The notes under the pieces: model-generated | What the model was told of the DNA's origin: nothing | Databases searched by the model: none | Seen by the model: only the letters and a program-made list of their open reading frames with translations | Assembly: GCF_005924265.1 (NCBI RefSeq) | Contig: NZ_VCLB01000009.1 | Location: forward strand, 186,001-250,000 | Direction of reading: 5' to 3' | DNA length: 64,000 bases | Source of the DNA: Martelella lutilitoris | Lineage (GTDB): Bacteria; Pseudomonadota; Alphaproteobacteria; Rhizobiales; Rhizobiaceae | Program-made: the position numbers and the translations under genes | Part shown: positions 18,677 through 37,325 of the stretch, piece after piece | Numbering within the stretch: position 1 is the first letter of the stretch | Layout of the letters: each line of letters starts with the position of its first letter

Positions 18677-19951
18677 TTATCGGTTGGCGTTCTCCCGCAT
18701 TTCCCGCGCATGGATGCCGAGCATCATCAATGCCGGCCAGAGGAGATAGGCCTCGATCTCGATGTTTTCGCCGAAGCTCAGCACGATCATGACGAAGACG
18801 ATCGAAAGCGGCAGGCGGCCGCGCGGATGGCGCACGCAATCAACCAACACGATCGCGGTCTGGGCCAGAAGCGGCACCAGCATGGCCAGAAAGCCGGTCA
18901 GGCCTTTGACGAACAACAGGCCATACCAGGTATGGTGCGAGCCGATGGGCATGTATTCCACAAGATGCGGGCCCGGCTGCACGGTGCCGTGGCCGAACCA
19001 GTAGGCCTCCGACCAGCGCTCATAGGCGATGCGCTGCAGCGCTTCGCGCACGCGCGTGCTGTCGGCGCGGGCATTCTTGAAGGCGTAGATGCCGCCCTGG
19101 ATCATGGTGAACACGGCGCCGCCGAAAATCGCCATCAGCGTCGCGAAGGCGGCGGCCATGCGCCAGGCATAGACCTTGGCGATCAACGGCAGCATGCGCG
19201 GTCCGACCGTGCAGACGACAACGCCGACGAGGCTCATGCGCGATTTGGTCAGCACGATCATGGCAAGGCCGGCGACGATGCCGCAAGTCTTCCAGAAGGG
19301 CTGTTTTTCTTCGAGCGCGAACGCGACCATGACAATACCGAGAAGCCCGGCAAAGGGCGACCAGGGCGCATAGAACTGCCAGCGTGGCGTCCAGCTGGAG
19401 GGATCGAGCGTGTAGAAATAGACCGAGAAATATTCAGGTCCCGGCCCGCCCACGGCCTTCAGCGGGGAGACGAAAATACGCTCCGGCAGGCCGATATAGG
19501 GGGCGGCGAACATCATCGGCAGCAGGATCAGCGTCCACAGCCCGATCACGCACTGGCCGCGGACGATGACCTCGCGCCGCACCTGCAGCACCGCGCCGGC
19601 GAGCGGAAACAGCGCCAGCAGCGCCCAGCCCTTGGCCCAGCCGATGCTGGACTTGATGGTCTGTTTCAGGCCGAGCCCCCACTGAAGATGCCCGCCCCAG
19701 AGCGCCACCAGCATGACCAGCATGCCGGCAATCCACAGCCAGACGATGAGCGGCACCGGTCCCGCCGGCCTCAGCGAAGGCCGCAGCGCAGGGCCGAAAT
19801 AAAGCGCGATCACGGCGAGCGCGAACAGCGACCAGCCGAGAACCGGGCCGACGACGTAAAGCGCGCCGAAGGCATAGAACAGCCAGGTGAAGACCAGCGT
19901 CTTGTAGACGATGGCCTCCGGGATGTTTTGTGGCCGAAACGACAGGGTCAT
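18677..19951 (-). CDS. O-antigen ligase/Wzy-type polysaccharide polymerase
   Basis: 424 residues from ATG 19951, with about 10-11 hydrophobic segments and a periplasmic loop (residues about 160-215) containing GPGPEYFSVYFYTLDPSSW. The late GSHHTWYGLLFVKGLTGF motif is typical of the Wzy_C/WaaL family, which polymerise lipid-linked repeat units or ligate chains in the periplasm. Its start lies one base after the wzc-like stop (TGA 19955-19953), so the two are translationally coupled. The context of an exopolysaccharide cluster with Wzx and Wza favours polymerase over ligase. Confidence 0.82.
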   Translation of the reverse strand: MTLSFRPQNIPEAIVYKTLVFTWLFYAFGALYVVGPVLGWSLFALAVIALYFGPALRPSLRPAGPVPLIVWLWIAGMLVMLVALWGGHLQWGLGLKQTIKSSIGWAKGWALLALFPLAGAVLQVRREVIVRGQCVIGLWTLILLPMMFAAPYIGLPERIFVSPLKAVGGPGPEYFSVYFYTLDPSSWTPRWQFYAPWSPFAGLLGIVMVAFALEEKQPFWKTCGIVAGLAMIVLTKSRMSLVGVVVCTVGPRMLPLIAKVYAWRMAAAFATLMAIFGGAVFTMIQGGIYAFKNARADSTRVREALQRIAYERWSEAYWFGHGTVQPGPHLVEYMPIGSHHTWYGLLFVKGLTGFLAMLVPLLAQTAIVLVDCVRHPRGRLPLSIVFVMIVLSFGENIEIEAYLLWPALMMLGIHAREMRENANR

Positions 19952-19952
19952 C

Positions 19953-21497
19953 TCACTTGCCTTCGGTAAAGAGGCGGACGGCACGGCCGAGGATCGGCTG
20001 ACGGATCCAGGCGAGAAGCAGGCTGAAAAGCGCGAAGGCGCTGCCGGCAACGCCGCCGGCAATGGCGATCTTGATGTTGGGCGAGGTCGGCGCGTAGTCG
20101 ATGGACGGGCTCGAAACGACCTGAACCATTGGGTAAGATGCGAAAATATCCGATTTCGCGGTGTTGATGCGGGCAAGCGCGGAAGCAAACACGGCTTCGG
20201 CCACCTTGTACTCGCGCTTCAAGGCGTCAAGGCGTGCGGCGGCATCCGAAAGGTTCCGAACCCGGGCTTCACCCTGCGCGAGCGATGCCTGTTTGGTCGC
20301 GATTTCGGCGGCAAGTCCGCGCGCTTCGGCGGCAAGCGACACCAGGCTGGACAACAGCCCTGCCCGCTGGCCATCGGCCAATGCATCCACCTCGCCGGCC
20401 AGTTCCAGCGTGTCGAACCCAGCGAGGACAACGCCGCGGCTGGAAAGCCGGTCGCGCAAACCGCTGACGCGATTATTGGCGCCGACGATCTTGGGATGTT
20501 TCGGGCCGAAATTGACCGCGAGCTTGGCGAGATCTGCACTGTCGCGCGCCAGAGTGTCGGCCAGGGTCACATATTGCGGATCGGCGCGCAGCTTGAGGAT
20601 GATGGCGGCGATCTCCGGCGTGGTCTCGAGCGTCCGGCCAAGGGTCGCGATCCGCTCATGGAGCTCGTCCAGTCTCGCCCGGCTGGCCGCGATCTCGAGC
20701 TGCAGGTCCTCGTTGTCGGCGACGATCGCGTCATATTGTTCGTTGGACTTCAAGCCGCTGTCGCGCTGCAGGTCGGCAATCGCCGTGCGGGCGTCCTCAA
20801 CCTTTGCCTGATAGGCATCGATCGCGTTGACGACCGAGCTCTCGCGGCGGACGATTTCGTCATTGCGCAGCTTGTCGAGCTCGAACAGGAAGGCGTCGAG
20901 CAGCGCCTTGTTGCGATCGCGCGCCTCTTCCGGCGATGCGCCCTTGAGCGCAATCTGGATGAAGCTGGTCTGATCGAGAAGCTTGATGCGCGGCTTGCCG
21001 AAGGCGGAGGCTTCCTGACCAAGCGTCTCGGCGGCGCGTTCGAGCACCTGCGGCGAGGATAGCAGGCTCTGATAGGTCACCGTCGGGCTCAGCGTCGAGC
21101 TGGAATAGGCCGAGTTGGCCGAGGATGACGCCTGACCGATATCGGAAAGGTTGATCGAGGTGGAAGCGCCGGCGCCCGGCAGGATCAGCGCCATATCCGA
21201 CGAAAAGGTCAGCGGTGCGTAGCGGACGTAAGAGATCACCGGCGCCCAGATGGCGCCGAGCATGATGCCGCCCAGCAGGATATAGCGCGGCAGACGGCCG
21301 GCATCGCCCGGTTTGCCGCCGGAGGCCACGCGCCAGAGGCTGACCCGGCCGCCACGGCTCAAGTGAAGAAAACGCGGGATGCGGAAAACCGCGCGGAAGA
21401 CCGCCTTCGCGCCCCGGGCGAGCCAGAAAACGGGCGTCAACAGGCGCGACAGGCTGCGCGGCTTTTCTGCAATGGTTTCGAATTCGCTGGTCTTCAT
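19953..21497 (-). CDS. Wzc-like polysaccharide chain-length determinant (no kinase domain)
   Basis: 514 residues. Transmembrane helices lie near residues 72-92 and 478-498, flanking a large periplasmic part with coiled coil (about 210-300 and 390-445), the Wzz/PCP plan. The GFSHPKI-like stretch NFGPKHPKIVGANNRV and SYPMVQVVSSPSIDYAPTSPN before the last helix are typical of GumC/ExoP proteins. There is no C-terminal Walker A tyrosine kinase, and no separate kinase gene lies in the cluster. ATG 21497 is preceded by GGGGGA. A CTAGCCTTTCGGATAG dyad lies 100 bp upstream. Confidence 0.88.
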   Translation of the reverse strand: MKTSEFETIAEKPRSLSRLLTPVFWLARGAKAVFRAVFRIPRFLHLSRGGRVSLWRVASGGKPGDAGRLPRYILLGGIMLGAIWAPVISYVRYAPLTFSSDMALILPGAGASTSINLSDIGQASSSANSAYSSSTLSPTVTYQSLLSSPQVLERAAETLGQEASAFGKPRIKLLDQTSFIQIALKGASPEEARDRNKALLDAFLFELDKLRNDEIVRRESSVVNAIDAYQAKVEDARTAIADLQRDSGLKSNEQYDAIVADNEDLQLEIAASRARLDELHERIATLGRTLETTPEIAAIILKLRADPQYVTLADTLARDSADLAKLAVNFGPKHPKIVGANNRVSGLRDRLSSRGVVLAGFDTLELAGEVDALADGQRAGLLSSLVSLAAEARGLAAEIATKQASLAQGEARVRNLSDAAARLDALKREYKVAEAVFASALARINTAKSDIFASYPMVQVVSSPSIDYAPTSPNIKIAIAGGVAGSAFALFSLLLAWIRQPILGRAVRLFTEGK

Positions 21498-21596
21498 CAA
21501 ACGGTCCCCCGGTTCGAGTTCGCGTTTCTTATAAAGACCGCCTTATTCTTCAGGGTAACACGATGGCACTAGCGGCACGCCCTTTCGCGATCGCCC

Positions 21597-21612
21597 CTAG
21601 CCTTTCGGATAG
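21597..21612. promoter_or_regulatory. Exopolysaccharide-cluster dyad, site 1
   Basis: CTAGCCTTTCGGATAG, 100 bp upstream of the wzc-like start. One of four related 16-bp imperfect palindromes in the cluster's promoter regions (also 22346, 23909, 28435). Confidence 0.6.
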
Positions 21613-21615
21613 TGT

Positions 21616-22230
21616 CTAGAACAACCCTTCATTCTTCGCGATCATCGCCGCCATGGTGCGGTTGCGCGCCTCAAGCTTGCGACACAGCGTCTTGACGTGA
21701 AGCTTGACGGTCACTTCCTGCAGGTCGAGCGTGCGGGCGATCTCCTTGTTGGAATGCCCTTCGACGAGGCCCCTCAGCACTTCCATCTCGCGTTTGGTAA
21801 GCTTCTCCTCCAGCGGATGGGCGGTCTTCTCTTCCTTCTCGGTCATAAACTGGACCGGCGCATATTGTTCGCCCGCCGCCATGAACCGCACGGCATGGAT
21901 CAGCGATTTCGCCGGGAGGCTCTTCGGCAGAAATCCGGCGGCGCCGGACGCGAGCGCCTCTTCAGCCACTTCCCGCGATGCCGTGCCGGAGAGAATGGCG
22001 ACCGGGCTGCCGAAATTGAGCTCCCTCGCCTTGGCAAGACCGTCCAGTCCGTTCATGCCGGGCATCGAATAGTCGAGCAGGACCAGATCGAACGGCCCCT
22101 CCTTGTTCATAAGTTCGGCCGCGCCGTCAAAATCGGCGGCCGCGGAAATCCGCAGACCCGGCTCGTTCGACAGGAAGGCGCATATGGTGTCGCGCACCAG
22201 TTCGTGATCGTCCGCTATCAATATCTTCAT
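21616..22230 (-). CDS. LuxR/NarL-family response regulator
   Basis: 204 residues: receiver domain with acidic DD in ADDHELV, the phospho-acceptor Asp in LVLLDYSMPG (about residue 52), Thr/Ser in ILSGTAS and Lys in LPKSLP, then a C-terminal GerE helix-turn-helix (LTKREMEVLRGLVEGHSNKEIARTLDLQEVTVKLHVKTL). ATG 22230 has AGGAAG before it and gives the canonical MKILIADD. It lies inside the exopolysaccharide cluster, facing away from the priming transferase. I infer that it is phosphorylated via the hybrid kinase at 24529-27126 and binds the repeated dyad. Confidence 0.93.
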   Translation of the reverse strand: MKILIADDHELVRDTICAFLSNEPGLRISAAADFDGAAELMNKEGPFDLVLLDYSMPGMNGLDGLAKARELNFGSPVAILSGTASREVAEEALASGAAGFLPKSLPAKSLIHAVRFMAAGEQYAPVQFMTEKEEKTAHPLEEKLTKREMEVLRGLVEGHSNKEIARTLDLQEVTVKLHVKTLCRKLEARNRTMAAMIAKNEGLF

Positions 22231-22345
22231 GAGCTTCCTCTTCTCATGATCTCCGCCGCAAATTTCATCCATAGCTTAAAAAGCGCTGTCCGGCCACCAT
22301 TGCCGGGCGTCGTTTAAACCTAGGGGGCAGGCAAAAGCTCCGGGA

Positions 22346-22361
22346 CCTGCCTTTGGGCTAG
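22346..22361. promoter_or_regulatory. Exopolysaccharide-cluster dyad, site 2
   Basis: CCTGCCTTTGGGCTAG, between the divergent response regulator and priming transferase. It is the most degenerate of the four sites and part of a longer dyad running from about 22318 to 22362 with CCTAG at both ends. Confidence 0.45.
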
Positions 22362-22508
22362 GTACGCTATGCGAAAGCGCAGAATGTCATTTCGGCGGCG
22401 CAAAAGCCTATGCTTCCGGAAGGCCCTCCTCGCCTTACTCGATAAGGCACGGCATCATCCCGCACGGCATCTTCTCCTCAACAGCAACACGCATCGATGG
22501 AGAGGCAG

Positions 22509-23864
22509 ATGGCCGCTTTCAAAACAGTTTCGCTTTTCGGACTTCCGATTGTCAGCGCTTCCCAGAGGCAAGCGGTGGCCGGCATGCTCAGCGCGCCGCA
22601 GGAAAAACGCACCGCCGCATTCCTCAACGCCCATTGCATGAACACGCACAAGGACGATGCATCCTATCGCTGGGCCGTGAGCAAGGCGGACTACCTTCTG
22701 CCCGACGGCTCCGGCATGAAGCTTGCCGCCAAGCTTCAGAACAAAAGCTTTGAAGCCAATCTCAATGGCACCGATCTCTTTGTCCCTCTTTGCCGGGAAG
22801 CCGCGCGGCTTGGCCGATCGATCTTCTTCTTCGGCAGCCAGGATGGCGTTGCGAATGCCGCGGCGAACCGCGCCTCGGAACTCGCGCCCGGCCTGAAGAT
22901 CGCCGGCACACGCCACGGTTTTTTTGCCAAGGACGATGAGGCCGGCATCATCGACGCGATCAATCGCTCCGGCGCCGATATCGTGCTGGTCGCGCTTGGC
23001 GTCCCCTTGCAGGATGTCTGGATTGCCCGCAACCGCCACAAGCTTGATGCCGGTCTGGTCATGGGCGTCGGCGCCCAGTTCGACTTCTTTTCCGGCCGCG
23101 TCGCCCGCGCGCCCGTCATCTTCCGCAAGGCCGGATGCGAATGGGTCTGGCGGCTGATGATGGAACCGCGCCGGATGGCCAAGCGCTATCTGGTCGGCAA
23201 TTTCCGCTTCGTGTTCAATGCCTGGCGCGAGGCCCGCGCCGTGCGTGCCGGGGCGACGGCGACAACGGCTGTGCGCGGAAAACGCCTGCTGGATATCGCG
23301 GTTGCCTCCTCGGCGCTGATCATGCTCTCTCCGCTGATGGCGAGCACGGCCCTCGCCGTGGCCGCAACCTCGCGCGGGCCTGTCTTCTTTCGCCAGACCC
23401 GTGTCGGCGAGAACGGCAAGCCTTTCACCATGCTGAAGTTCCGATCGATGTATCGGGACGCGGAAGCGCGGCGTGCGGCCCTGCTGGAAACCAGCGACCG
23501 GGAAGGCATCTGCTTCAAGTCGCGCACCGATCCCCGGATCACGCCGGTCGGCCGGATCATGCGCAAGCTCTCGATCGACGAACTGCCGCAGATCATCAAC
23601 GTGCTGAAGGGCGACATGTCGATCGTCGGCCCGCGCCCGGCGCTGCCGCAGGAAGTCGCCGCCTATGCGCCGGAAGCCATGTCGCGGCTTGCCGCCAAGC
23701 CCGGCATCACCGGCCTTTGGCAGGTCTCGGGCCGCGCCGAGATCGGCTTCGAGCGCATGCTGCAGATGGACAACGCCTATATCCGCTCGCGCAGCATCGT
23801 GCTCGACCTGACGATTATTGCATTGACTGTCCGGGCAGTTTTCTCAGGGCGGGGCGCCTACTGA
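22509..23864 (+). CDS. Fused WecG/TagA glycosyltransferase and bacterial sugar transferase (priming enzyme)
   Basis: 451 residues in two enzyme halves. Residues about 1-240 are a GT26 WecG/TagA/CpsF domain (LNAHCMNTHKDDASYRWA, DYLLPDGSGM, GTDLFVPL, VALGVPLQD). Residues about 255-451 are a polyprenyl-phosphate sugar-1-phosphate transferase: one membrane helix, then FFRQTRVGENGKPF, MLKFRSM, KLSIDELPQ, GDMSIVGPRPALP and KPGITGLWQVSGR. The C-terminal half would start the repeat unit on undecaprenyl phosphate and the N-terminal half add the second sugar. ATG 22509 is chosen because GGAGAGG lies just upstream. A terminator follows its stop. Confidence 0.92.
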   Translation: MAAFKTVSLFGLPIVSASQRQAVAGMLSAPQEKRTAAFLNAHCMNTHKDDASYRWAVSKADYLLPDGSGMKLAAKLQNKSFEANLNGTDLFVPLCREAARLGRSIFFFGSQDGVANAAANRASELAPGLKIAGTRHGFFAKDDEAGIIDAINRSGADIVLVALGVPLQDVWIARNRHKLDAGLVMGVGAQFDFFSGRVARAPVIFRKAGCEWVWRLMMEPRRMAKRYLVGNFRFVFNAWREARAVRAGATATTAVRGKRLLDIAVASSALIMLSPLMASTALAVAATSRGPVFFRQTRVGENGKPFTMLKFRSMYRDAEARRAALLETSDREGICFKSRTDPRITPVGRIMRKLSIDELPQIINVLKGDMSIVGPRPALPQEVAAYAPEAMSRLAAKPGITGLWQVSGRAEIGFERMLQMDNAYIRSRSIVLDLTIIALTVRAVFSGRGAY

Positions 23865-23877
23865 CGAAGCATCGGTG

Positions 23878-23908
23878 AAAGACGGGCGCATCGTGATCGG
23901 CCGTCTTT
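23878..23908 (+). terminator. Rho-independent terminator after the priming transferase
   Basis: 8-bp perfect stem AAAGACGG (23878-23885) and CCGTCTTT (23901-23908), followed by a pyrimidine-rich stretch. It abuts dyad site 3. Confidence 0.6.
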
Positions 23909-23924
23909 CTATCCTTTCGTATAG
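23909..23924. promoter_or_regulatory. Exopolysaccharide-cluster dyad, site 3
   Basis: CTATCCTTTCGTATAG, 88 bp upstream of the molybdopterin-fold gene that starts the kinase operon. Closest to the consensus. Confidence 0.6.
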
Positions 23925-24011
23925 CTAAACCATCCATGTTTGCATGCCCTGCGCGCCGACGTTGGAGTAATTTCAACGTCACCACCTCCGCTTTTCAGGA
24001 AGGCAGAAATC

Positions 24012-24524
24012 ATGATCAGAACCATTCTTCTCCTGGCCGCTATCGCGCCGCTCATGTTTGTAAGGCCGGCCCTTGCCGAAGATTTGACGGAGCCAGCCAG
24101 TCGCGTCATCCTGACCGTCTCCGGCAATATCGGCAAAAGCAACACGCCGGATAACGCGGCTGAATTCGATCTAGCCATGTTGGAGGCTCTGCCCCAGACC
24201 CGTTTTGAGACGTCGACGATCTGGACCGACGGCACGGCCGAGTATTCCGGAGTTGAGCTTTCCACGCTGCTTGAGGCGGTCGAGGCCGATGGCACGCAGC
24301 TACTGATGACTGCGCTTAACGACTATGCCATCGAGGTGCCGGCCAGCGAAGCAGTTTCCGGCGGCCCCATTCTGGCGACGCGGGTCGACGGCAGGCCGCT
24401 GTCCGTCCGCGACAAGGGGCCGATCTGGGTGATCTATCCCTTCGATGACAACCCCGCCTACAAGACAGAAGTCACATATTCGCGTAGCATATGGCAGCTG
24501 AAATCAATCGATGTGAAAGACTGA
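24012..24524 (+). CDS. Periplasmic protein with sulfite-oxidase-like molybdopterin-binding fold
   Basis: 170 residues with a signal peptide ending PALA-ED. The remainder resembles the oxidoreductase molybdopterin-binding (SUOX) domain: VILTVSGNIG, FDLAMLEALPQTRFETST, YSGVELSTLLEAV, NDYAIEVPASE, GPIWVIYPFDDNP. The mature part contains no cysteine, so the Mo-ligating Cys of true enzymes is missing and a sensory or ligand-binding role is more likely than catalysis. It ends 4 bp before a hybrid histidine kinase and shares its operon. I infer a periplasmic accessory to that kinase. Confidence 0.78.
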   Translation: MIRTILLLAAIAPLMFVRPALAEDLTEPASRVILTVSGNIGKSNTPDNAAEFDLAMLEALPQTRFETSTIWTDGTAEYSGVELSTLLEAVEADGTQLLMTALNDYAIEVPASEAVSGGPILATRVDGRPLSVRDKGPIWVIYPFDDNPAYKTEVTYSRSIWQLKSIDVKD

Positions 24525-24528
24525 TCCG

Positions 24529-27126
24529 ATGAAGGAAGAGGCGGCCCAAGGGATACCTGCCCGCAAGCCGCAGAGCTGGAAAGGCATCTATGTCGCCGCC
24601 GGCCTCCTGCTGCTGGCGGTGATGCTGGTACTGAGCCTGCTCGCCGCCCAGCTGATGCAGGAGCTGACCCGGCTGCGCTCGGCCTCGACCGACAATGTGC
24701 AATGGTCGATGGCGCAGGTGCAGGTCGAGCTTCTCGTGCTGGAAACAGCCGTGGATGACGCAATCCACAACAATACGCCGCAGGCGCTCGACGAGGTGCG
24801 GCAACGTTTTGACATTTTCTACAGCCGGATCGATACGCTTCAACAAGGCTCCGTTTTCAGCGGCGTCACACAGGAAACCCGGGCGCGCCAGGTTCTTGAC
24901 CACCTGATGGACGCGCTCAACCGCTTCATCCCGATCATCGACGGGTCCGATGAGGCACTGTCCGCTGCACTTCCCGTTCTGGATGATGCATTCGTGGCGA
25001 TGCGCGCAGATGTCCGCGCCATTTCGCTGACAGGGGTGCGTCTGCTGGCGGAGCAATCCGACAGGGACCGCCAGGCCTTTTCCAGTGTGTTGCTGCGCAC
25101 CGGGCTGGTTGCTGCCGGTGTCATGGCCGCCATGTTTCTCGCGCTTTTCCTCGCCGTCTGGCAGTTCAAGATCGCACGCACGAGAACGGAAGACCTGCAA
25201 ACCCAGAACCTCCTCTACGAGAGCGCAATCAACGCCTCGCTGGAGGCGATCATCGTGTCCGACGAGGCCGGGCGCATCCTCGATTTCAACCCGGCGGCCG
25301 AGCAATTATTCGGCTACAAGCGCGAGCATGCCATAGGCGTCAGCGCGGAAAAACTCATCATTCCGAAAGAAGATCTGCAGCTTCACCGCGAAAGACGCGT
25401 TCAGTTTCTCGAACAGTTCCGCGGCGGGGAAGCCAACCTTTCCGGACGGCTGGAAATCAACGCCATGCGCGCCAATGGCGAGGTCTTCCCGGCGGAGGTT
25501 TCCGTTGGCCTCACGCGCCGCGGCGAAGGACGGATCATCGTCACCTATATGCGCGACATATCCGAGCGCAAACGGGCGCAGGAAAACCTGACGCAAGCGC
25601 GCGATGACGCGGTGGCGACGGCCAAGGCGAAATCGGATTTTCTCGCGGTGATGAGCCACGAGATGCGCACGCCGCTCAACGGCGTCATGGGTCTGCTCGA
25701 CATGCTGAGCGAGACCCGGCTGACCCGCAAGCAGCGCGACTATGTGGAGACAGCCATCTCATCCGGCGAAATCCTGCAGAACCATATCGACGACGTCCTC
25801 AACATCACCCGCATCGAGGCCGGCGTGACGCGGCTCAACCCCGTCCGCTTCGAGGTCGCGCCGCTCTTGACCGAACTGAAAAAGATGAATGATCCGGCGG
25901 CGCAAAGGCGCGGCAACACCATTGTGACGGACATCGCCGAAGGGGCGCGTTTCTGCGATCAGGATCGCCACGGGCTGCGCCAGGTGCTGATCAACCTTGT
26001 CGGCAATGCGGTGAAATTCACCGAAAAGGGGACAATTACGCTGGAAGCCGCGCCCTGGGGGGACGACGGCTGGATCGAGTTTTCCGTCAGCGACACCGGC
26101 ATCGGGGTAAGCCGGGAGGACGCCAAGCGGATTTTCGAGGATTTCGTGATGCTCGATCCGTCCTACAAGCGCACTGCGCCAGGCTCGGGCCTGGGGCTCG
26201 GAATTTCGCGTCGGCTCGTCGACCTGATGGGCGGCGAGATCGGGGTTGAAAGCGAACCCGGTCAGGGAAGCCGCTTCTTCCTCCGCCTGCCGCCATTGGA
26301 AGTATCGGCGCAGAAACCGGTGGAACCGGAACGCGCCGAAACCGTCATTCCGGACCTGGAACAGGCAAACCTTTCCGTCCTCCTGGTCGAGGATAACGAG
26401 ACGAACCGCTTCGTCGCCCGCGAAATGCTGAGGAAACACGGCTGCAGGATCACCGAGGCCCATGACGGCATCGAAGGCGTCGAGAAGGCCGCAGGCGAGC
26501 GGTTCGACGTGATCTTCATGGATGTCAGCATGCCGCGGCTCGACGGGATCGGCGCCACGCAGGCAATCCGGGAGGGCGACGGCCTTTCCCGCCACACGCC
26601 GATCATCGGCCTCACGGCCCATGCGCTGCCCGACGAGCGGCGCAGGCTCGAAGAAGCCGGCATGGTGGACTGTATCGTCAAGCCGCTCAGAAGCGCGAAG
26701 GTGCGCGACGTCATCGGCGCGCTCCTGCTGCAGAGATCAGCTTCGGATGACACTTCGTTCGACACCGACGTCGATGACGACGATACCGGTCTGATCGATC
26801 ACGAGACCCTGGCCGAGCTGACCGAGGCGCTGCCGCCCGAGCTTTTCGAACGCCAGCTTGAGCGGTTCAGGGCGGAACTGGCGGAATCAAAAGAGCGCTT
26901 CTGCGGCGGCTCGGATCAGGTCGTCAATCTGGATGAGCTTGCAGCCGGCGCGCACAAGATGGCCGGCTCCGCTGCCGTGTTCGGCGCCGTTGCCCTGCGC
27001 GCCGCTCTGCTGGATGTCGAATCTGCGGCAAAACATGGCGCGCGCGAAGAGGTTGCACCGCTCTGCGAGACGGCCAGCGAAACCGCGCAAAAGACGCTCC
27101 GAGCGCTTTCGGACCTTACCGCCTGA
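24529..27126 (+). CDS. Hybrid sensor histidine kinase (PAS-HisKA-HATPase-REC-HPt)
   Basis: 865 residues. Helices at about 22-42 and 190-212 enclose a periplasmic helical sensor domain. PAS covers about 230-350 (AIIVSDEAGRILDFNPAAEQLFGY), HisKA has the phospho-His in SHEMRTPLNG (about 375), and HATPase shows NLVGNAVKFT, DTGIG and GSGLGLGIS. A receiver has Asp in IFMDVSMPR (about 665) and a C-terminal HPt has His in AHKMAGSAAVFG (about 809). It carries every phosphorelay step except the output regulator, most likely the LuxR-type protein at 21616-22230. It is in an operon with the upstream periplasmic protein and converges on the wza-like gene. Confidence 0.94.
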   Translation: MKEEAAQGIPARKPQSWKGIYVAAGLLLLAVMLVLSLLAAQLMQELTRLRSASTDNVQWSMAQVQVELLVLETAVDDAIHNNTPQALDEVRQRFDIFYSRIDTLQQGSVFSGVTQETRARQVLDHLMDALNRFIPIIDGSDEALSAALPVLDDAFVAMRADVRAISLTGVRLLAEQSDRDRQAFSSVLLRTGLVAAGVMAAMFLALFLAVWQFKIARTRTEDLQTQNLLYESAINASLEAIIVSDEAGRILDFNPAAEQLFGYKREHAIGVSAEKLIIPKEDLQLHRERRVQFLEQFRGGEANLSGRLEINAMRANGEVFPAEVSVGLTRRGEGRIIVTYMRDISERKRAQENLTQARDDAVATAKAKSDFLAVMSHEMRTPLNGVMGLLDMLSETRLTRKQRDYVETAISSGEILQNHIDDVLNITRIEAGVTRLNPVRFEVAPLLTELKKMNDPAAQRRGNTIVTDIAEGARFCDQDRHGLRQVLINLVGNAVKFTEKGTITLEAAPWGDDGWIEFSVSDTGIGVSREDAKRIFEDFVMLDPSYKRTAPGSGLGLGISRRLVDLMGGEIGVESEPGQGSRFFLRLPPLEVSAQKPVEPERAETVIPDLEQANLSVLLVEDNETNRFVAREMLRKHGCRITEAHDGIEGVEKAAGERFDVIFMDVSMPRLDGIGATQAIREGDGLSRHTPIIGLTAHALPDERRRLEEAGMVDCIVKPLRSAKVRDVIGALLLQRSASDDTSFDTDVDDDDTGLIDHETLAELTEALPPELFERQLERFRAELAESKERFCGGSDQVVNLDELAAGAHKMAGSAAVFGAVALRAALLDVESAAKHGAREEVAPLCETASETAQKTLRALSDLTA

Positions 27127-27136
27127 GAAGAGACGG

Positions 27137-28366
27137 TCAGATGATCACGCCGAGCGCGCCGATGATGCCGAGCTTGGTGGCAAGATCGGTGATGTTGATC
27201 ACCGAGGAATCATAACAGGCCAGCGCATCGCCCGGCATCAGATAGGGATCGAAATCGTCGCGGTCGCCGCGCCTGAGAAGCTCCTCGAGATTGCGCTCGA
27301 TCACGATCGACTGTCCGGTAATGGGATTGCGCGTGAACAGCACCGCCGAGCGGTTGGAATTGGTGAGCCGTGCACCGCCCACGCAATTGAGGCTGAAGAC
27401 CGCCTGCAGGAAGCGCGTTCCATACCGCAGTTCGACCGTATCCTTGGAAATCGCGGCCTGCGCATTGGATGAAGCCGGTACCGCCAGATTGGACATGAAC
27501 ACCTTGACGCCGGGCGGCGCGACGGCGGACGGCGCCATCAGCTCTTCCTGGAAGCAATGCCGGCTTGGAATCTCGACCTGGTCGCCTTCCAGCAGAACCG
27601 GATCGGGATAGGCATGCCCGGTGATGACCGGTCGCATGTCGTAGGTTCTCTTGTGTCCGCCGCGCCAGACGGTGACGCGCGAGAGGTCCGCATCCGGACG
27701 CACGCCGCCGGCCGATTGCAGGGCGCGGGCCAGACGGCGCTCGCTGGTGCGCCCGCCAAGTGTCTCCTGCCGCAAGCGGTCGAGCGACGTCGCGGCGACC
27801 GAGCCGACGGTGACCGAGCCGGGTTCGAACACCGCGCCCGCGACAAACACGCGCGCGGGCGCAAAATCCATCACGCGGATCGAGACCAGCGGTACGGTGT
27901 TGTAAAGCCCCTCGTCGATCAGGGCCCTGCGTACGCTTTCCTCGATGGAGTCGACCGAGCGTCCCTTGGCGCTGACCGGCGGCACATACATCAAACGCAG
28001 CATGCCGTCCTGCGAGATTTCGTACTTTCCGGAAATCTCGTCATCGTCGGAAATCGAGACCTCGATCAGATCGCCCGGCGAAAGGATGTCGATATCGGCC
28101 GGCACCATGCGACTTCCGGGCGGGCCGAGCGTCTTGTCAGGCGCGCAGCGCTGGGCGTTCATCAGTACGGAGGATTTGCTGAGGCGCTCGGCCTCGTCAT
28201 CGGAGGTGGCGCGATACTGAGCCTGGTAGCTCTCGCCTTCTTTGACGTTTTCTCTGTTTCCGATCGGCTCGAGCGAGGCACAACCCTGCGCGAGAGCGAG
28301 GAGCGAGACGAGCGCGACCCGGCCAGAGGCCGATTTCAGACGGTTTTTCAAACGCTTTTGACCCAT
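27137..28366 (-). CDS. Wza-like polysaccharide export outer-membrane lipoprotein
   Basis: 409 residues from ATG 28366; the signal ends in a lipobox, LAQGC, so it is lipidated. Poly_export domain: DILSPGDLIEVSISDDDEISGKYEISQDGMLRLMYVPPVSAKG, followed by SLBB-like repeats (ARVFVAGAVFEPGSVTVG, LARALQSAGGVRPDADLSRVTVWRGG). It forms the outer-membrane exit channel. The start is uncertain since no strong ribosome-binding site is seen, but it places the lipobox correctly. Divergent from the Wzx gene, with dyad site 4 between them. Confidence 0.9.
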   Translation of the reverse strand: MGQKRLKNRLKSASGRVALVSLLALAQGCASLEPIGNRENVKEGESYQAQYRATSDDEAERLSKSSVLMNAQRCAPDKTLGPPGSRMVPADIDILSPGDLIEVSISDDDEISGKYEISQDGMLRLMYVPPVSAKGRSVDSIEESVRRALIDEGLYNTVPLVSIRVMDFAPARVFVAGAVFEPGSVTVGSVAATSLDRLRQETLGGRTSERRLARALQSAGGVRPDADLSRVTVWRGGHKRTYDMRPVITGHAYPDPVLLEGDQVEIPSRHCFQEELMAPSAVAPPGVKVFMSNLAVPASSNAQAAISKDTVELRYGTRFLQAVFSLNCVGGARLTNSNRSAVLFTRNPITGQSIVIERNLEELLRRGDRDDFDPYLMPGDALACYDSSVINITDLATKLGIIGALGVII

Positions 28367-28434
28367 ACTGCACTGCGGCTCTGTCACCCGGCCGCTGTCA
28401 CACCCACTAACCATACGGCCTGGCAGCCTGTCGC

Positions 28435-28450
28435 CTATACCAAAGGATAG
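28435..28450. promoter_or_regulatory. Exopolysaccharide-cluster dyad, site 4
   Basis: CTATACCAAAGGATAG (complement CTATCCTTTGGTATAG), 69 bp before the wza-like start and 126 bp before the wzx start, so placed to act on both. Confidence 0.6.
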
Positions 28451-28575
28451 AAGACAGAACCGAATGGGCGTTCCCATGACCTTCGGAACCCCCAAAGACC
28501 AGCCCCCTCTCATCTATAAACCTAACACAACGAAACCCGACGTCCACCGCTTGCAACACAAGGCCGGATATCAAG

Positions 28576-29853
28576 ATGTTCATGCTCAGAAACAAGATTG
28601 CTGACGCTGCCTCTTCGCCGCTCATCCGCGGCGCCTCGGCCTATCTCGCGTCGGAGGCTGCCGCGAAGGCCTCCCGGCTCGCGGTCGTCGTCGCGATGGC
28701 CCGCTTCCTCTCCCCCCTGGAAATCGGCATCGCGGCGGCGGCCATGGCGGGCTCGGACATCCTGAAGTCCCTCGCCGAAAACGGCGTCGGCCAGCGGATC
28801 ATCATCGCCGGCGACAGCGAACTCGATGCGGTGACCAAGCGCGCCCACCGGATCTTCTGGGTCTGGTGCACGGGGTTGACCGTGCTGCAGATTGCTGTCG
28901 GCGCCGGCGTCTGGCTTGCCGGCGGCAGCGTCATGACCTTTGCCCTGATGGCGCTTCTCGGGCTGGAATACCTGTTCATGCCCGGTGGTCTGGTGCAGTG
29001 CGCCCTTGCCATGCGCAAAGGCATGCTGGCCCGCACGGCGGCCGTTTCCGGTGCGCAGAATGTCAGCGCCAATCTGTTGACGGTCGTGCTCGTGGCGCTC
29101 TTTCCGAGCCCGCTCGCGGTCGTCCTGCCCAAGCTGCTGTCGGCGCCCGTCTGGCTCATCGGCATGCGGCGGCTGGTGCACTGGCGGCCCGCGCCCGGCA
29201 TCGCGCCGGCGCCGCTTTCCGCCTTCACCCGCTTCGGCGCGTCCGTTCTCGGCATTGAGTTCGTGAAAGCCTTGCGCGCGCAGGCTGACAAGCTGATTGT
29301 CGGCGCTGTTCTCGGCACCGAGGCGCTCGGCATCTATTTCTTTGCCTTCAATGCCGGAGTGGGCATCTCCACCTCGCTGGCAACCGCATTGTCGACGGTG
29401 TTGTTTCCGTATCTTTCGACCAGCGGCGACCGGGTTCTGGCGCTCAAGCGTGGGCTGACACTGGCCTTGACGGCGATCACCGTCGTCGCTGTTGCCCAGA
29501 GCCTGGCGGCATCCTCCTATGTATCGCTGGTCTTCGGCGACAAATGGGCATCGGTCGCGCCGCTGGTCGCCATTCTCTGCCTGATGGCGATCCCGAACAT
29601 GCTGTGGTCGGTCACCGCCCAGTGGCTGCGCTCCGGCGGCCGCGCCGATCGTGAGCTGGTTCTCTCGCTGATTGCGGGCGCAATCATCACGGCGACGGCT
29701 GTTGTCGCTGCGCCCCACGGCTTGACAGTCTTGGCCTGGGCAACGCTTGGAGCCGCAACGATCGTCCAGAGCGCGATTTCGCTGCCAGTCCTTCTGAAAG
29801 CCTTTGCTGTGCGCAAGGCACCCCGTTGCAACCCTTCTTTCCAGGGAGCCTGA
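28576..29853 (+). CDS. Wzx-type polysaccharide flippase
   Basis: 425 residues, almost entirely hydrophobic, with about 12 predicted helices in the MOP/polysaccharide-synthase pattern (ASAYLASEAAAKASRLAVVV at the start, the FVKALRAQADKLIVGAVLGTEALGIY motif near residue 235). It would flip the undecaprenyl-linked repeat unit to the periplasm for the Wzy enzyme. First gene of an operon with three glycosyltransferases; only 3 bp separate it from the next. Confidence 0.87.
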   Translation: MFMLRNKIADAASSPLIRGASAYLASEAAAKASRLAVVVAMARFLSPLEIGIAAAAMAGSDILKSLAENGVGQRIIIAGDSELDAVTKRAHRIFWVWCTGLTVLQIAVGAGVWLAGGSVMTFALMALLGLEYLFMPGGLVQCALAMRKGMLARTAAVSGAQNVSANLLTVVLVALFPSPLAVVLPKLLSAPVWLIGMRRLVHWRPAPGIAPAPLSAFTRFGASVLGIEFVKALRAQADKLIVGAVLGTEALGIYFFAFNAGVGISTSLATALSTVLFPYLSTSGDRVLALKRGLTLALTAITVVAVAQSLAASSYVSLVFGDKWASVAPLVAILCLMAIPNMLWSVTAQWLRSGGRADRELVLSLIAGAIITATAVVAAPHGLTVLAWATLGAATIVQSAISLPVLLKAFAVRKAPRCNPSFQGA

Positions 29854-33040: not shown

Positions 33041-34519
33041 CTATCCGCAGCAGGGCGCTCGTCCCCGATTGGCATATCGCCGCCCGGTTTCTTGTATCAA
33101 TCGGGCTTCCGCCAAGGCCGCCTTCCTTGCAAATACCTGGCCAATGCCGAACAGGACCGGATTGTCATGGCCGATTTCGGCCATGCCCTCGCCCAGCATT
33201 GCCAGCGCGCCGAACCAGCGTCTTTCATCCGGACGGCTGATATTGGCGGCGATCAGGACCGGGGTGTCCGGCGGCAGGCCTTCGGCGATCAGCCGCGCGC
33301 CGATCTCGCCGGCGGTGCGGCCGCCCATGTAGAACATCGTCGTGGTCGTCGGGTCGGCGATGGCGCGCCAGTCGATATCCTCCGGCAGCGCGCCCTTTTT
33401 CGAATGCCCGGTGACGAAGCGCACCGATTGAGCGCAGTCGCGGTGGGTGAGCGACGTCGTCGTGCCGGCGGCGAGCGCGCTTGCGGCGGTGATGCCGGGG
33501 ATGACGGAGACCGGGATGCCAGCGTCTTTCAGTGCGGCAATTTCCTCGCCGGAGCGCCCGAAGACCGAAGGGTCGCCGGATTTCAGCCGCACGACGCGCT
33601 TTCCGGCCCGCGCCAGATCGAGCATCATCCGGTTGATATCCTCCTGCCGGCAACTCGTCCGGCCGCCGCGTTTTCCCACGAGCATGCGCTTTGCTTCTCG
33701 CCGCGCGAGTTCGAGGATTTCCGGCGAAATCAGATCATCGAACAGGATGACATCGGCCGATTGCAGCGCGCGCATGGCCTTCAGCGTCAGGAGTTCCGGA
33801 TCGCCCGGCCCGGCACCGACCAGCGTGACGCTGCCGGTTTGCGGTGAGGCTGCGATCTGTGTGGCGCGCGTCAGGAGCCGGTCGGCCGCAGCCTCGTCGG
33901 GGCTTCCGGAAAAGCTGAGATCGACAAAATGCTCCCAGAAGGCCCGTCGCGCGCCGCCCGGTTTCAGCCGCGCACCGATGGCCTCGCGCAGGGAGGCGGC
34001 AAGACCCGCCCATTCGGCAAGCGCCTTCGGCAGCAGCGTCTCAATCCGCCGGCGGATCGCCTGACCCAAAATGGGAGCCGCGCCATCGGTGGAAATGCCG
34101 ACCACGACCGGCGAGCGGTTGACGATCGAGCCGAACTGGAAATCACAATAGGCTGGCTTGTCGATGACATTGACTGGCACGCCTTCCGCCTTCGCCCGCG
34201 CGCGGAAGGTCTGCGCTTCCTCTTCGCTGTCGCAATCGCCCAGCGCCAGCTCAAATCCATTCCAGTCGGCCGCCGACCAATGCGCGCCGGAAAGCCGCAC
34301 CCGGCCGTCGGCTTCGAGCGCAAGCAGCGCCTCGTCGGCAGCCTCGCGCCCCAGAAAGACCGTGACGTCGGCCCCGGCAGCGGCCATAAGCTCGGCTTTC
34401 CAGGCGGCCGCGTCACTGCCGCCGGCGACCAGCACCGCCCTGCCCTTCAATCGGAAGAACAGCGGCAGGACGGCGAGGTCCTCCATGCGGGCAGGCGTTT
34501 TTGCGCGTCCGGTGGCCAT
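33041..34519 (-). CDS. cysG: Siroheme synthase CysG (bifunctional)
   Basis: 492 residues. The N-terminal half (about 12-215) is precorrin-2 dehydrogenase/ferrochelatase with the NAD site AVLVAGGSDAAAWKAELM; the C-terminal half is uroporphyrinogen-III C-methyltransferase (LVGAGPGDPELLTLKAMRAL, RLKSGDPSVFGR, PGITAASA). It makes siroheme for NirB. GGAGG precedes ATG 34519, 12 bp after nirD. Last gene of the nrt-nir operon. Confidence 0.95.
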   Translation of the reverse strand: MATGRAKTPARMEDLAVLPLFFRLKGRAVLVAGGSDAAAWKAELMAAAGADVTVFLGREAADEALLALEADGRVRLSGAHWSAADWNGFELALGDCDSEEEAQTFRARAKAEGVPVNVIDKPAYCDFQFGSIVNRSPVVVGISTDGAAPILGQAIRRRIETLLPKALAEWAGLAASLREAIGARLKPGGARRAFWEHFVDLSFSGSPDEAAADRLLTRATQIAASPQTGSVTLVGAGPGDPELLTLKAMRALQSADVILFDDLISPEILELARREAKRMLVGKRGGRTSCRQEDINRMMLDLARAGKRVVRLKSGDPSVFGRSGEEIAALKDAGIPVSVIPGITAASALAAGTTTSLTHRDCAQSVRFVTGHSKKGALPEDIDWRAIADPTTTTMFYMGGRTAGEIGARLIAEGLPPDTPVLIAANISRPDERRWFGALAMLGEGMAEIGHDNPVLFGIGQVFARKAALAEARLIQETGRRYANRGRAPCCG

Positions 34520-34531
34520 GGGTCCGCCTCC

Positions 34532-34867
34532 CTATTCCGCCGCCATCGGCAGGGCCGAAAGCGCGATCGAGAGGCGGCCGTCTTCAACGCGAACAGGATA
34601 GGTCTGCACCGCGCCCTCATCCGCGCCGAGCGCCGCGCCGCTTTCCAGCGAGATCACCATGTTATGAAGCGGACAGGTCACGGCCTGGCCATGCACCAGT
34701 CCCTCCGATAACGGCCCGCCCTTGTGCGGGCAGCGGTCGTCGATGGCGAAGACCTCGTCCGCCGCGGTGCGGAACACCGCGATCCGCCCGAAACCTGTGT
34801 TGACGCAGCGCGCGCCGCGTTGCGGGATGTCGTCGATATGGCCGATGGCGATGAAATCATTGCTCAT
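34532..34867 (-). CDS. nirD: Nitrite reductase (NADH) small subunit NirD
   Basis: 111 residues, a Rieske-like [2Fe-2S] domain with CPHKGGPLSEG and CPLHNMVISLESG as cluster ligands. It partners NirB in cytoplasmic reduction of nitrite to ammonium. ATG 34867 has GGAG before it and lies 10 bp after the nirB stop. Confidence 0.95.
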   Translation of the reverse strand: MSNDFIAIGHIDDIPQRGARCVNTGFGRIAVFRTAADEVFAIDDRCPHKGGPLSEGLVHGQAVTCPLHNMVISLESGAALGADEGAVQTYPVRVEDGRLSIALSALPMAAE

Positions 34868-34877
34868 GATGGGCTCC

Positions 34878-37325
34878 TCACTCCGCCGGCTCGGGATGTC
34901 CGACCACGGCCATCGGCTTGAATTCATGCTTGTCCTTGCCGGAGACGCGCTCCGACCACGGGTCGACCTGGGCATATTTCTGGCTTTCGACGAAGCGATC
35001 GAAATAGGCCTTGCGCTTTTCGGCATCGTTCATGATCTGGGCGCACACCTCGTCATAGCCGATGCGTTTTGCCCATTTGTAGATGCGCTCCAGATAGCGC
35101 GCCTGTTCGCGATACATCTGGGTCAGCGCCACGATATGCTCGAGCGCCTCGTCTTCGGTCTTCACCATGCCGAGCACTTCCGTGCCGCGAATTTCCAGCC
35201 CGGCCGCGCCGGCGAAATGGATTTCGAAGCCACTGTCGACGCAGATCACGCCGATATCCTTGCAGGTCGCCTCGGCGCAGTTGCGCGGACAGCCGGAAAC
35301 GGCAAGCTTGACCTTGGCGGGCGTCCACGAGCCCCACATGAATTTCTCAAGCCTTATGCCAAGCCCGGTCGAATCCTGCGTGCCAAAGCGACACCAGTCG
35401 CTGCCGACACAGGTCTTCACGGTGCGCAGGCCCTTGGCATAGGCCTGCCCGGAGACGAAGCCCGCCTTGCCGAGATCGGCCCAGACCGCCGGCAGGTCTT
35501 CCTTTTTCACGCCCAGCATGTCGATACGCTGGCCGCCGGTGCATTTGACGGTCGGGATCTCGTATTTGTCGACAACATCGGCAATCGCGCGCAGCTCCTT
35601 CGACGACGTCACCCCGCCCCACATGCGCGGCACCACCGAATAGGTGCCGTCCTTCTGGATATTGGCGTGGACGCGCTCGTTGATGAAGCGCGACTGATAG
35701 TCATCGGCATATTCGCCGGGCCAGTCGCAGACGAGATAGTAGTTCAGCGCCGGCCGGCATTTGGCGCAGCCGCAGGAGGTTTTCCATTCAAGCTCCTGCA
35801 TCACAGCGGGGATGGTCTTCAGCCCCTTGGCGCGGATCAGGCGGCGCACATCGTCATGGCCGAGATCTGTGCAGCCGCAGACCGGCTGGACGGCGGCGGG
35901 GTTATAGGCATCCCCCAGCGTCAGCGCCATGAGCTGTTCGACCAGCCCGGTGCAGGTGCCGCAGGACGCCGAGGCTTTGGTGTGGGCGCGGACATCGTCG
36001 AGCGAAGTGAGGCCCTTGTCCTTGATGACGGAAACGATCTTGCCCTTGCAGATGCCGTTGCAGCCGCAGATCTCCGCGTCATCGGGAAGGGCTGCCACGG
36101 CCGCCGCCGGATCGGCGGTGCCGCCGCCCTGATAGGCCTGACCGTAGATCAGCGTCTCGCGCATTTCCGAGACATCGGTTCCGCGCTTCAGCATGTCGAA
36201 ATACCAGGGGCCATCGGCGGTGTCGCCATAAAGCACGGCGCCGATCACGCGGTTATCCTGCAGGATCACGCGTTTGTAGACGCCGCGCGTGGCATCGCGC
36301 AGCACCACCTCCTCGCGGTCCGGCCCCTCGGCGAAATCGCCGGCGGAAAACAGCTTGATGCCGGTGACCTTCAGCTTGGTGTTGACATGCGAGCCCTTGT
36401 ATTCCGCCGTGCCGCCGGCAAGCCGATTGGCGAGCACGGAAGCACTTTCGTAAAGTGGCGCGACCAGACCGTAGCAGGTGCCGCGATGTTCGGCGCATTC
36501 GCCAAGCGCGAAGATGGCAGGGTCGGAGGTCGCCATGCCGTCATCGACGACGATGCCGCGATTGGTTTCAAGCCCGGCATCCTTGGCCAGCCCCGCCGCC
36601 GGACGGATACCGACCGCCATCACCACCATATCGGCGGAGATGATGCGGCCGTCCTCCAGTTCGACGCCCTCGACCCTGCCCTCTCCAATGATTTGCTTGG
36701 TGTTGGCCTTGGTGATGATCTCGATGCCGCGATCGTCCAGCGCCTTTTCCAGGAGATAGGCCGCCGCCGGATCGAGCTGCCGCTCCATGATCGTGTCCAT
36801 GAGATGCAGCACGGTAACGCTCATGCCGCGCTGCTTCAGCCCGTAGGCCGCTTCAAGCCCCAGAAGCCCGCCGCCGATGACCACTGCATGGCCCTGCCCC
36901 TCGGCAATCTTCAGCATCTTCTCGACATCGTCGAGATCGCGATAGGCGAGCACGCCGGGCAGATCATGCCCCGGCACCGGGATGATGAAGGGCGAGGAGC
37001 CGGTCGCGATCACCAGCCGGTCGTAAGAGGCCGTGACGCCGTTTTCGGCGGTGACGGTCTTCGCCTCCCGGTCGATCTTCGCGACCTTCGCGCCGCGATG
37101 CAGCGTCACGCCATTGGCTTCATACCAGTCATCGCCATGGATGATGATGTCTTCATAGGTTTTTTCGCCGGAGAGCACCGGCGACAGCATGATGCGGTCG
37201 TAATTCACCCGCGGTTCGGCGTTGAAGATGGTGACGTCATAGAGGCCGGGGGCGCGCTCGAACAGGTCCTCGAGCATGCGGCCGGGGGCCATGCCGTTTC
37301 CGATTATGACAAGTTTCTGGGCCAT
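34878..37325 (-). CDS. nirB: Nitrite reductase (NADH) large subunit NirB
   Basis: 815 residues. FAD/NAD-binding pyridine-nucleotide reductase domain first (VIIGNGMAPGRMLEDL, GGGLLGLEAAYGL), then BFD-like [2Fe-2S] segments (CGCNGICKGKI and CGTCTG; CGCTDL and CGCAKC), then the siroheme/[4Fe-4S] sulfite/nitrite reductase half with TCVGSDWCRFG and SGCPRNCAEATCKD. Cytoplasmic enzyme reducing nitrite to ammonium with NADH. Starts 5 bp after the ABC gene's stop, in one operon with the nitrate importer. Confidence 0.97.
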   Translation of the reverse strand: MAQKLVIIGNGMAPGRMLEDLFERAPGLYDVTIFNAEPRVNYDRIMLSPVLSGEKTYEDIIIHGDDWYEANGVTLHRGAKVAKIDREAKTVTAENGVTASYDRLVIATGSSPFIIPVPGHDLPGVLAYRDLDDVEKMLKIAEGQGHAVVIGGGLLGLEAAYGLKQRGMSVTVLHLMDTIMERQLDPAAAYLLEKALDDRGIEIITKANTKQIIGEGRVEGVELEDGRIISADMVVMAVGIRPAAGLAKDAGLETNRGIVVDDGMATSDPAIFALGECAEHRGTCYGLVAPLYESASVLANRLAGGTAEYKGSHVNTKLKVTGIKLFSAGDFAEGPDREEVVLRDATRGVYKRVILQDNRVIGAVLYGDTADGPWYFDMLKRGTDVSEMRETLIYGQAYQGGGTADPAAAVAALPDDAEICGCNGICKGKIVSVIKDKGLTSLDDVRAHTKASASCGTCTGLVEQLMALTLGDAYNPAAVQPVCGCTDLGHDDVRRLIRAKGLKTIPAVMQELEWKTSCGCAKCRPALNYYLVCDWPGEYADDYQSRFINERVHANIQKDGTYSVVPRMWGGVTSSKELRAIADVVDKYEIPTVKCTGGQRIDMLGVKKEDLPAVWADLGKAGFVSGQAYAKGLRTVKTCVGSDWCRFGTQDSTGLGIRLEKFMWGSWTPAKVKLAVSGCPRNCAEATCKDIGVICVDSGFEIHFAGAAGLEIRGTEVLGMVKTEDEALEHIVALTQMYREQARYLERIYKWAKRIGYDEVCAQIMNDAEKRKAYFDRFVESQKYAQVDPWSERVSGKDKHEFKPMAVVGHPEPAE

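Follow-up and report, generated by a model that had tools for sequence, protein, structure and literature searches.

Which protein reads the short palindromes that stand before the operons of a polysaccharide cluster in Martelella lutilitoris, and with what effect? The window (the whole stretch of DNA that was analysed, 64,000 nucleotides) comes from a genome of 4.45 Mb in 18 contigs, and the first-pass annotation had described one 16-bp dyad at all four promoter regions of a cluster within it.

Gene content of the cluster

The polysaccharide cluster was located by domain searches of ORFs and spans 18.7-32.8 kb of the window. It contains genes for wzy-like, wzc-like, wza-like and wzx-like proteins, a NarL-type regulator, a fused WecG/priming transferase, a moco-like protein, a hybrid kinase and glycosyltransferases. 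The genes that matter here are the following.

18677-20188, minus strand: wzy-like protein, tentative (Wzy_C 28.5 bits, under the cut-off of 31.7)
19953-21499, minus strand: wzc/chain-length-like protein, tentative (no Pfam match; NCBIfam TIGR03007 56.8 bits, under the cut-off of 278.85)
21616-22230, minus strand: response regulator of 204 aa, receiver and GerE helix-turn-helix (Pfam, translation)
22497-23864, plus strand: WecG/TagA/CpsF glycosyltransferase fused to a priming sugar transferase (Pfam PF03808, PF02397)
24012-24524, plus strand: small molybdopterin-binding-domain-like (moco-like) protein (Pfam, 28.6 bits against a cut-off of 24 for the ORF)
24529-27126, plus strand: hybrid kinase, PAS-HisKA-HATPase-receiver-Hpt (Pfam)
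27137-28366, minus strand: wza-like polysaccharide export protein (Poly_export, E 1.9e-10 for the ORF 27137-28513; start codon picked by eye)
28576-29853, plus strand: wzx-like flippase, leading the glycosyltransferase operon (PF13440, E 6e-26)

The real start of the wzy-like gene probably lies further inside its ORF. The fused transferase is a single protein of 455 aa. Directly after the cluster, on the opposite strand, genes for siroheme synthase and a NirB-like nitrite reductase are found at 33041-37325.

Dyads in the window

The four 16-mers of the first-pass annotation, at 21597, 22346, 23909 and 28435, were all found letter for letter. Their proposed common asymmetric dyad, CTANCCTTTNGNNTAG, was found to be exact at 21597, 23909 and (minus strand) 28435, whereas 22346 differs from it at two positions. 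With up to two mismatches it matches the window 6 times, against a mean of 1.00 and a maximum of 4 in shuffles, none of 100 of which reached 6. Because the middle bases vary among relatives, the asymmetric pattern with its fixed TTT was dropped and the symmetric CTATCC-N4-GGATAG adopted, which is the best way of writing the palindrome.

A weight matrix was trained on 124 intergenic sites from other loci, with the window and the Martelella loci L019-L021 left out. Three sites top its ranking of the window with scores of at least 20.0, and the next best site scores 8.4. In 100 simulated windows (second-order Markov) the mean maximum was 11.4, 0.41 sites were expected at 12 or more, and one maximum reached 20.05, so that chance could on rare occasions yield a single site at 20, but not three. 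The dyads, given without strand, are listed with their matrix scores and ranks.

21597-21612: strong dyad CTAGCCTTTCGGATAG (20.0, rank 3; kept in L019 and L020)
22346-22361: weak dyad CCTGCCTTTGGGCTAG between the regulator and priming-transferase genes (1.2, rank 44)
22367-22382: second weak dyad CTATGCGAAAGCGCAG, 21 bp from 22346 (7.9, rank 6)
22408-22423: third weak dyad CTATGCTTCCGGAAGG, 41 bp from 22367 (7.4, rank 7)
23909-23924: strong dyad CTATCCTTTCGTATAG ahead of the plus-strand operon of the moco-like protein and kinase (23.8, rank 1; aligned in L019 and L021)
28435-28450: strong dyad CTATACCAAAGGATAG in the gap from which the wza-like and wzx-like genes diverge (22.6, rank 2; kept in L019, and in L020 with changes)

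The dyad at 21597 lies just past the regulator stop codon, between it and the wzc-like gene, and is upstream of the wzc-like/wzy-like operon on the minus strand. The site at 22346 was ruled out as an equal fourth member on its score and rank. It aligns with degenerate CTATCC half-sites at the corresponding places in the Martelella relatives L019 and L020, is outscored by its intergenic neighbours 22367 and 22408, and is retained with these two as a degenerate weak set. The claim of a dyad at all four promoter regions therefore stands for three of them, and the fourth holds the weak set only.

Rarity in the genome and conservation in Martelella

Many equally good matches across the genome would speak against a dedicated site, and none such were found: CTATCCN4GGATAG occurs at up to one mismatch at 4 places in 4.45 Mb, of which 3 are in this cluster. 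The fourth (C13:344460) lies inside long ORFs; it was considered as a functional site and taken as chance. The asymmetric CTANCCTTTNGNNTAG has 3 exact places in the whole genome, all in this cluster, and 2 further ones at one mismatch on contig C14, both of which match the looser pattern; read backwards, it has 57 places at up to one mismatch.

The nearest named relatives of the regulator protein (among the best 80 of 560 candidates) are from Martelella, with 92%, 89% and 86% identity. Among the Martelella relatives L019-L021, both of those compared at the wzc promoter keep the strong dyad, and so do both at the wza/wzx promoter, one of them in altered form. At the kinase promoter 2 of 3 keep it; the region taken for the third was a guess and lacks the site. 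The regulator is present in 8 of 13 Martelella genomes, and two of these genomes (G280, G288) carry two copies apiece. The 8 regulator-bearing genomes hold 38 sites at one mismatch, 18 of them within 12 kb of the regulator gene and 20 not near it, and the 5 genomes without the regulator hold 6.

Conservation across regulator loci

The comparison was extended to 86 regulator loci, consisting of 6 stretches of the window's family and 80 named loci (the best 80 of 560 confirmed candidates). Together with the window (1.606 Mb), these contain 42 exact palindromes, compared with a mean of 0.017 and a maximum of 1 for 59 permuted half-sites; counts over the loci are not independent because the loci are related. 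A crude ORF caller, which counts 87% of the bases as genic, places 36 of the 42 between genes. No exact palindromes with spacers of 0-3 or 5-8 were found in the 86 loci and the window, the enrichment being at spacer 4 only. At one mismatch the same sequences hold 63 sites against a mean of 2.2 (maximum 12) for permuted half-sites, and at two mismatches 71 of the 86 loci contain a site and 15 do not. These two-mismatch sites total 178; the reversed pattern gives 43, spread over 33 of the 86 loci.

These counts bear on the simplest alternative, that the likeness is chance combined with shared descent of the clusters. The compared loci are related and counted many times over, and site 22346 by itself lies within chance, but the dyad is kept while its flanks are not, stands before unrelated genes and beats the 59 permuted palindromes on the same loci. 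Together with the position of Rhodobacteraceae sites near the regulator and the placement before operon-leading genes, both described below, this makes such an origin exceedingly improbable.

Co-occurrence of the dyad with the regulator gene

As a fairer test than the related loci, 120 genomes were sampled evenly across the Sulfitobacter noctilucae family (Rhodobacteraceae), with the regulator called at E 1e-50 or better. The regulator was found in 51 of the 120 and the exact palindrome in 27; the palindrome occurs in 24 of the 51 with the regulator versus 3 of the 69 without (Fisher p 2.4e-8), in a sample whose centre was chosen because its locus had sites. It is absent from 27 of the 51 regulator-bearing genomes. 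The exact sites number 42, of which 27 are within 12 kb of the regulator gene, and the reversed pattern gives 5 sites, every one in genomes without the regulator. One locus in this material, L034, is from a record titled Oceanobacillus sp. HTM 045 (genome G157, drawn as family kin of Sulfitobacter noctilucae) and carries this alphaproteobacterial regulator locus; the title looks wrong.

In the window's own family, the exact palindrome was found in 12 of 151 genomes, 2 of the 7 with the regulator versus 10 of the 144 without (p 0.10, not significant). Exact matches there are mostly background, and the exact palindrome was discarded as a marker within that family.

Plasmids also carry the regulator. 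Relatives at E 1e-40 occur in 17 plasmid records, 4 of which were scanned with the matrix. A Sulfitobacter faviae plasmid, outside the training set, has sites of 26.2, 23.1, 19.3 and 16.3 at the promoters that correspond to the four of the window. The plasmid of Sulfitobacter sp. DSM 110093 (L117) has scattered middling sites only, of 14.8 and 12.3 and elsewhere than at those promoters, and no site above 8.6 was found in the matrix scan of the Cereibacter (45% identity) and Paracoccus plasmids.

On these data, the earlier expectation that the dyad would be conserved in relatives proved correct: other Martelella and more distant bacteria have it at the matching promoters, and it tracks the regulator gene. 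The dyad could also be read by another, chromosomally encoded regulator, with the cluster's response regulator merely travelling along. Exact sites in 3 genomes without the cluster regulator (at E 1e-50) would fit this, as would six loci (wza, wzx, wcaJ, wzc, wzy) that keep dyads without such a kinase in the stretch examined. Against it, the dyad accompanies the cluster regulator in different families, in polysaccharide clusters of unlike type (L016, L035) and on a plasmid, and its two-half-site form suits a NarL-type dimer; a different reader is accordingly regarded as improbable. Overall, the dyad belongs to a widespread regulator family and is not peculiar to this cluster, since it is also found beside alginate-like clusters with another sensor pair.

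Genes preceded by the dyad

Placement was assessed in the regulator loci at two mismatches, in a span that reaches from 350 bp upstream to 40 bp downstream of the estimated gene start. The dyad was found in 154 of 391 gene upstream regions, versus 16 of 391 for the reversed pattern, and was concentrated on operon-leading genes. It precedes wzc-like genes in 22 of 23 cases, wzx in 19 of 23, moco-like genes in 37 of 52, wcaJ in 15 of 26, FIST genes in 7 of 7, GDP-mannose-dehydrogenase-like genes in 8 of 9, alg44-like genes in 6 of 8 and manC in 4 of 10. Before inner genes and the others scored it is scarce (wzy 0/23, moco-type kinase 3/59, FIST-type kinase 0/9, alg8-like 0/9, RTX 0/16, wza 3/21, type I secretion ABC 2/12). 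For wza, the small number is due either to a dyad nearer to wzx in the divergent pair or to poor start estimates.

The idea of feedback on the kinase operon through the site at 23909 has good comparative support from the 37 of 52 moco-like genes. Feedback on the regulator gene itself, preceded by the dyad in 28 of 84 loci, has less comparative support than that on the kinase operon.

A palindrome of this kind could fold as a six-pair stem with a four-base loop, and the site at 21597 directly follows the regulator stop codon, as might be expected of RNA elements such as terminators. None of 11 terminator-like places at 21400-28700 coincides with a dyad, however, the dyads precede gene starts and also lie between divergent genes, and the four-base spacer is free. 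An RNA element is thus very improbable.

Promoter layout and the sign of control

When 113 promoters were aligned on the main dyad, the mean matrix score was observed to peak again toward the gene, at +20 (3.3 sd) and +41 (2.9 sd) over background, and both peaks persist when the set is reduced by similarity to 104 promoters. A score of 0 or more occurs at +20/+21 in 12% of promoters versus 0.5% on average; the +41 dyads are too degenerate for single calls. Offsets of 5, 10, 12 and 4 bp to either side in the profile were judged to be self-overlap of the palindrome and disregarded. A weak third peak lies at +67 bp from the dyad start and is strongest before dehydrogenase-like genes.

Two further features are conserved in the aligned promoters, counted from the start of the site: an A at +60 and TA..A at +80-84. 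These positions would fit -35 and -10 elements, in which case the last dyad would abut the -35. A simple consensus scan found no sigma-70 promoters at the dyads of the window, so the proposed -35/-10 placement comes from averages.

This layout bears on whether the regulator binds the dyads as a repressor that keeps the polysaccharide off until a signal arrives, the sign of control not being given by binding-site evidence alone. A main dyad well upstream, with weaker copies stepping toward the gene, suits activation more than promoter occlusion, and the presence of a dyad ahead of the kinase of the same system suggests that the feedback is positive. Repression is therefore the less favoured reading and rather unlikely, if still to be reckoned with.

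Regulator, kinase and moco-like protein

The regulator resembles the NarL/FixJ family along its full length, with a receiver (PF00072, E 1.1e-21) and a GerE helix-turn-helix (PF00196, E 2e-18); its predicted two-half-site operator would be a further point of likeness. In the receiver, the phosphoacceptor Asp (D53) and the conserved Lys (K103) are invariant in 7 of 7 aligned sequences. NarL and VraR are its nearest solved relatives, and the recognition-helix stretch TVK.HVK is common to the regulator and NarL in the alignment. The regulator nevertheless falls far under the cut-offs of the named NCBIfam NarL/FixJ members listed. An identification as NarL itself (NF007935) was rejected at 121.2 bits versus a curated cut-off of 250, making the protein NarL-like, not NarL. 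The NarL heptamer is TACYYMT, unlike the half-site CTATCC of this system.

All of HisKA, HATPase, receiver and Hpt were found in the kinase. The moco-like protein encoded just before it lacks cysteine and has, judged by eye, what looks like a signal peptide; of 52 relatives, 2 have a cysteine anywhere beyond residue 26. In sulfite-oxidase-type molybdenum proteins, a cysteine ligand of molybdenum is a defining feature; its lack here makes the usual molybdenum binding improbable. The protein may be a sensory domain and is a probable sensory partner of the kinase.

Proposed control of the cluster

CTATCC-N4-GGATAG is very probably the operator of the cluster-encoded NarL-type regulator (21616-22230), activation being the less certain part of this prediction. 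The suggestion that the cluster is a self-contained regulon of its LuxR-type regulator and hybrid kinase is supported, in that good matches are few across the genome and the dyad recurs in relatives together with the regulator. The dyads, their conservation, their position ahead of operon-leading genes, their tie to the regulator gene and the averaged +20/+41 repeats were observed; we infer binding by the regulator, a phosphorelay, activation over repression and the promoter positions.

The kinase and the moco-like protein, its probable periplasmic partner, would sense a signal. Phosphate would then pass from the kinase His to the receiver Asp, on to the Hpt His and finally to Asp53 of the regulator, the Hpt transfer being suggested by gene neighbourhood. 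A dimer of the phosphorylated regulator would bind the strong dyads that head the wzc/wzy, moco/kinase and wza-wzx units, fill the weaker dyads about 20 and 41 bp nearer to the gene, the last abutting the -35, and recruit RNA polymerase. The dyad before the kinase operon would close a feedback loop, and the weak set in the intergenic region of 22346-22423 may give a lower-affinity response there.

Comparison with known systems

The kind of system, a cluster-encoded two-component regulon, is already known. TodT-type operators of toluene degradation likewise have six-base arms around four bases and several boxes per promoter, and differ in arms, kinase and pathway. SgmT/DigR of Myxococcus xanthus (PMC3509222) similarly consists of a hybrid kinase and a DNA-binding response regulator, and acts on the extracellular matrix; those two are described as orphans, whereas in the present system both genes are part of the polysaccharide cluster. 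WelA of Sphingomonas sp. WG is likewise an alphaproteobacterial hybrid kinase tied to polysaccharide, being required for full yield (PMC8921679); as a point of difference, the word LuxR and the phrase 'binding site' are absent from the main text of that paper. A literature search found no earlier description of the present regulator-operator pair among the matches listed, and within that scope the pair appears undescribed.

A tree of 87 regulators places FIST neighbours at several positions, with 6 changes, at least 5 of them forced by well-supported branches; 8 of 500 shuffles give as few. The changes may be gains or losses and incomplete loci inflate the class scored as 'none', so that exchange on several occasions is what we infer from them. 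Taken as a whole, the data make it reasonably likely that this is a portable polysaccharide control cassette. Its operator code would be kept across Rhizobiales, Rhodobacterales and a plasmid, while the driven clusters (Wzx/Wzy-type, or an alginate-like synthase with an RTX protein) and the sensors (moco-like protein with Hpt kinase, or FIST with GAF/PAS kinase) would have been exchanged several times, and its promoters would be helically phased sets of one strong and two weaker dyads.

The breadth of the system stands out, the same predicted operator being found before Wzx/Wzy-type and alginate-like clusters and with two kinds of sensor. A response regulator that the plasmid records examined annotate in no more than general terms gains a predicted operator code, target genes and kinases. 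Polysaccharide regulons may thereby become readable straight from the genomes of marine and soil Alphaproteobacteria, many of them biofilm-forming, and the signal that drives these clusters could be tested with a simple dyad reporter.

Two alginate-like clusters (L016 5607-16127 and L035 5314-19640) contain an RTX protein, type I secretion genes and the same dyads, and in both loci a FIST protein and a GAF/PAS hybrid kinase adjoin the regulator. The label alginate-like refers to a GT2 synthase, an HlyD-like protein, a mannose-1-phosphate guanylyltransferase-like protein and a sugar-nucleotide dehydrogenase in L035.
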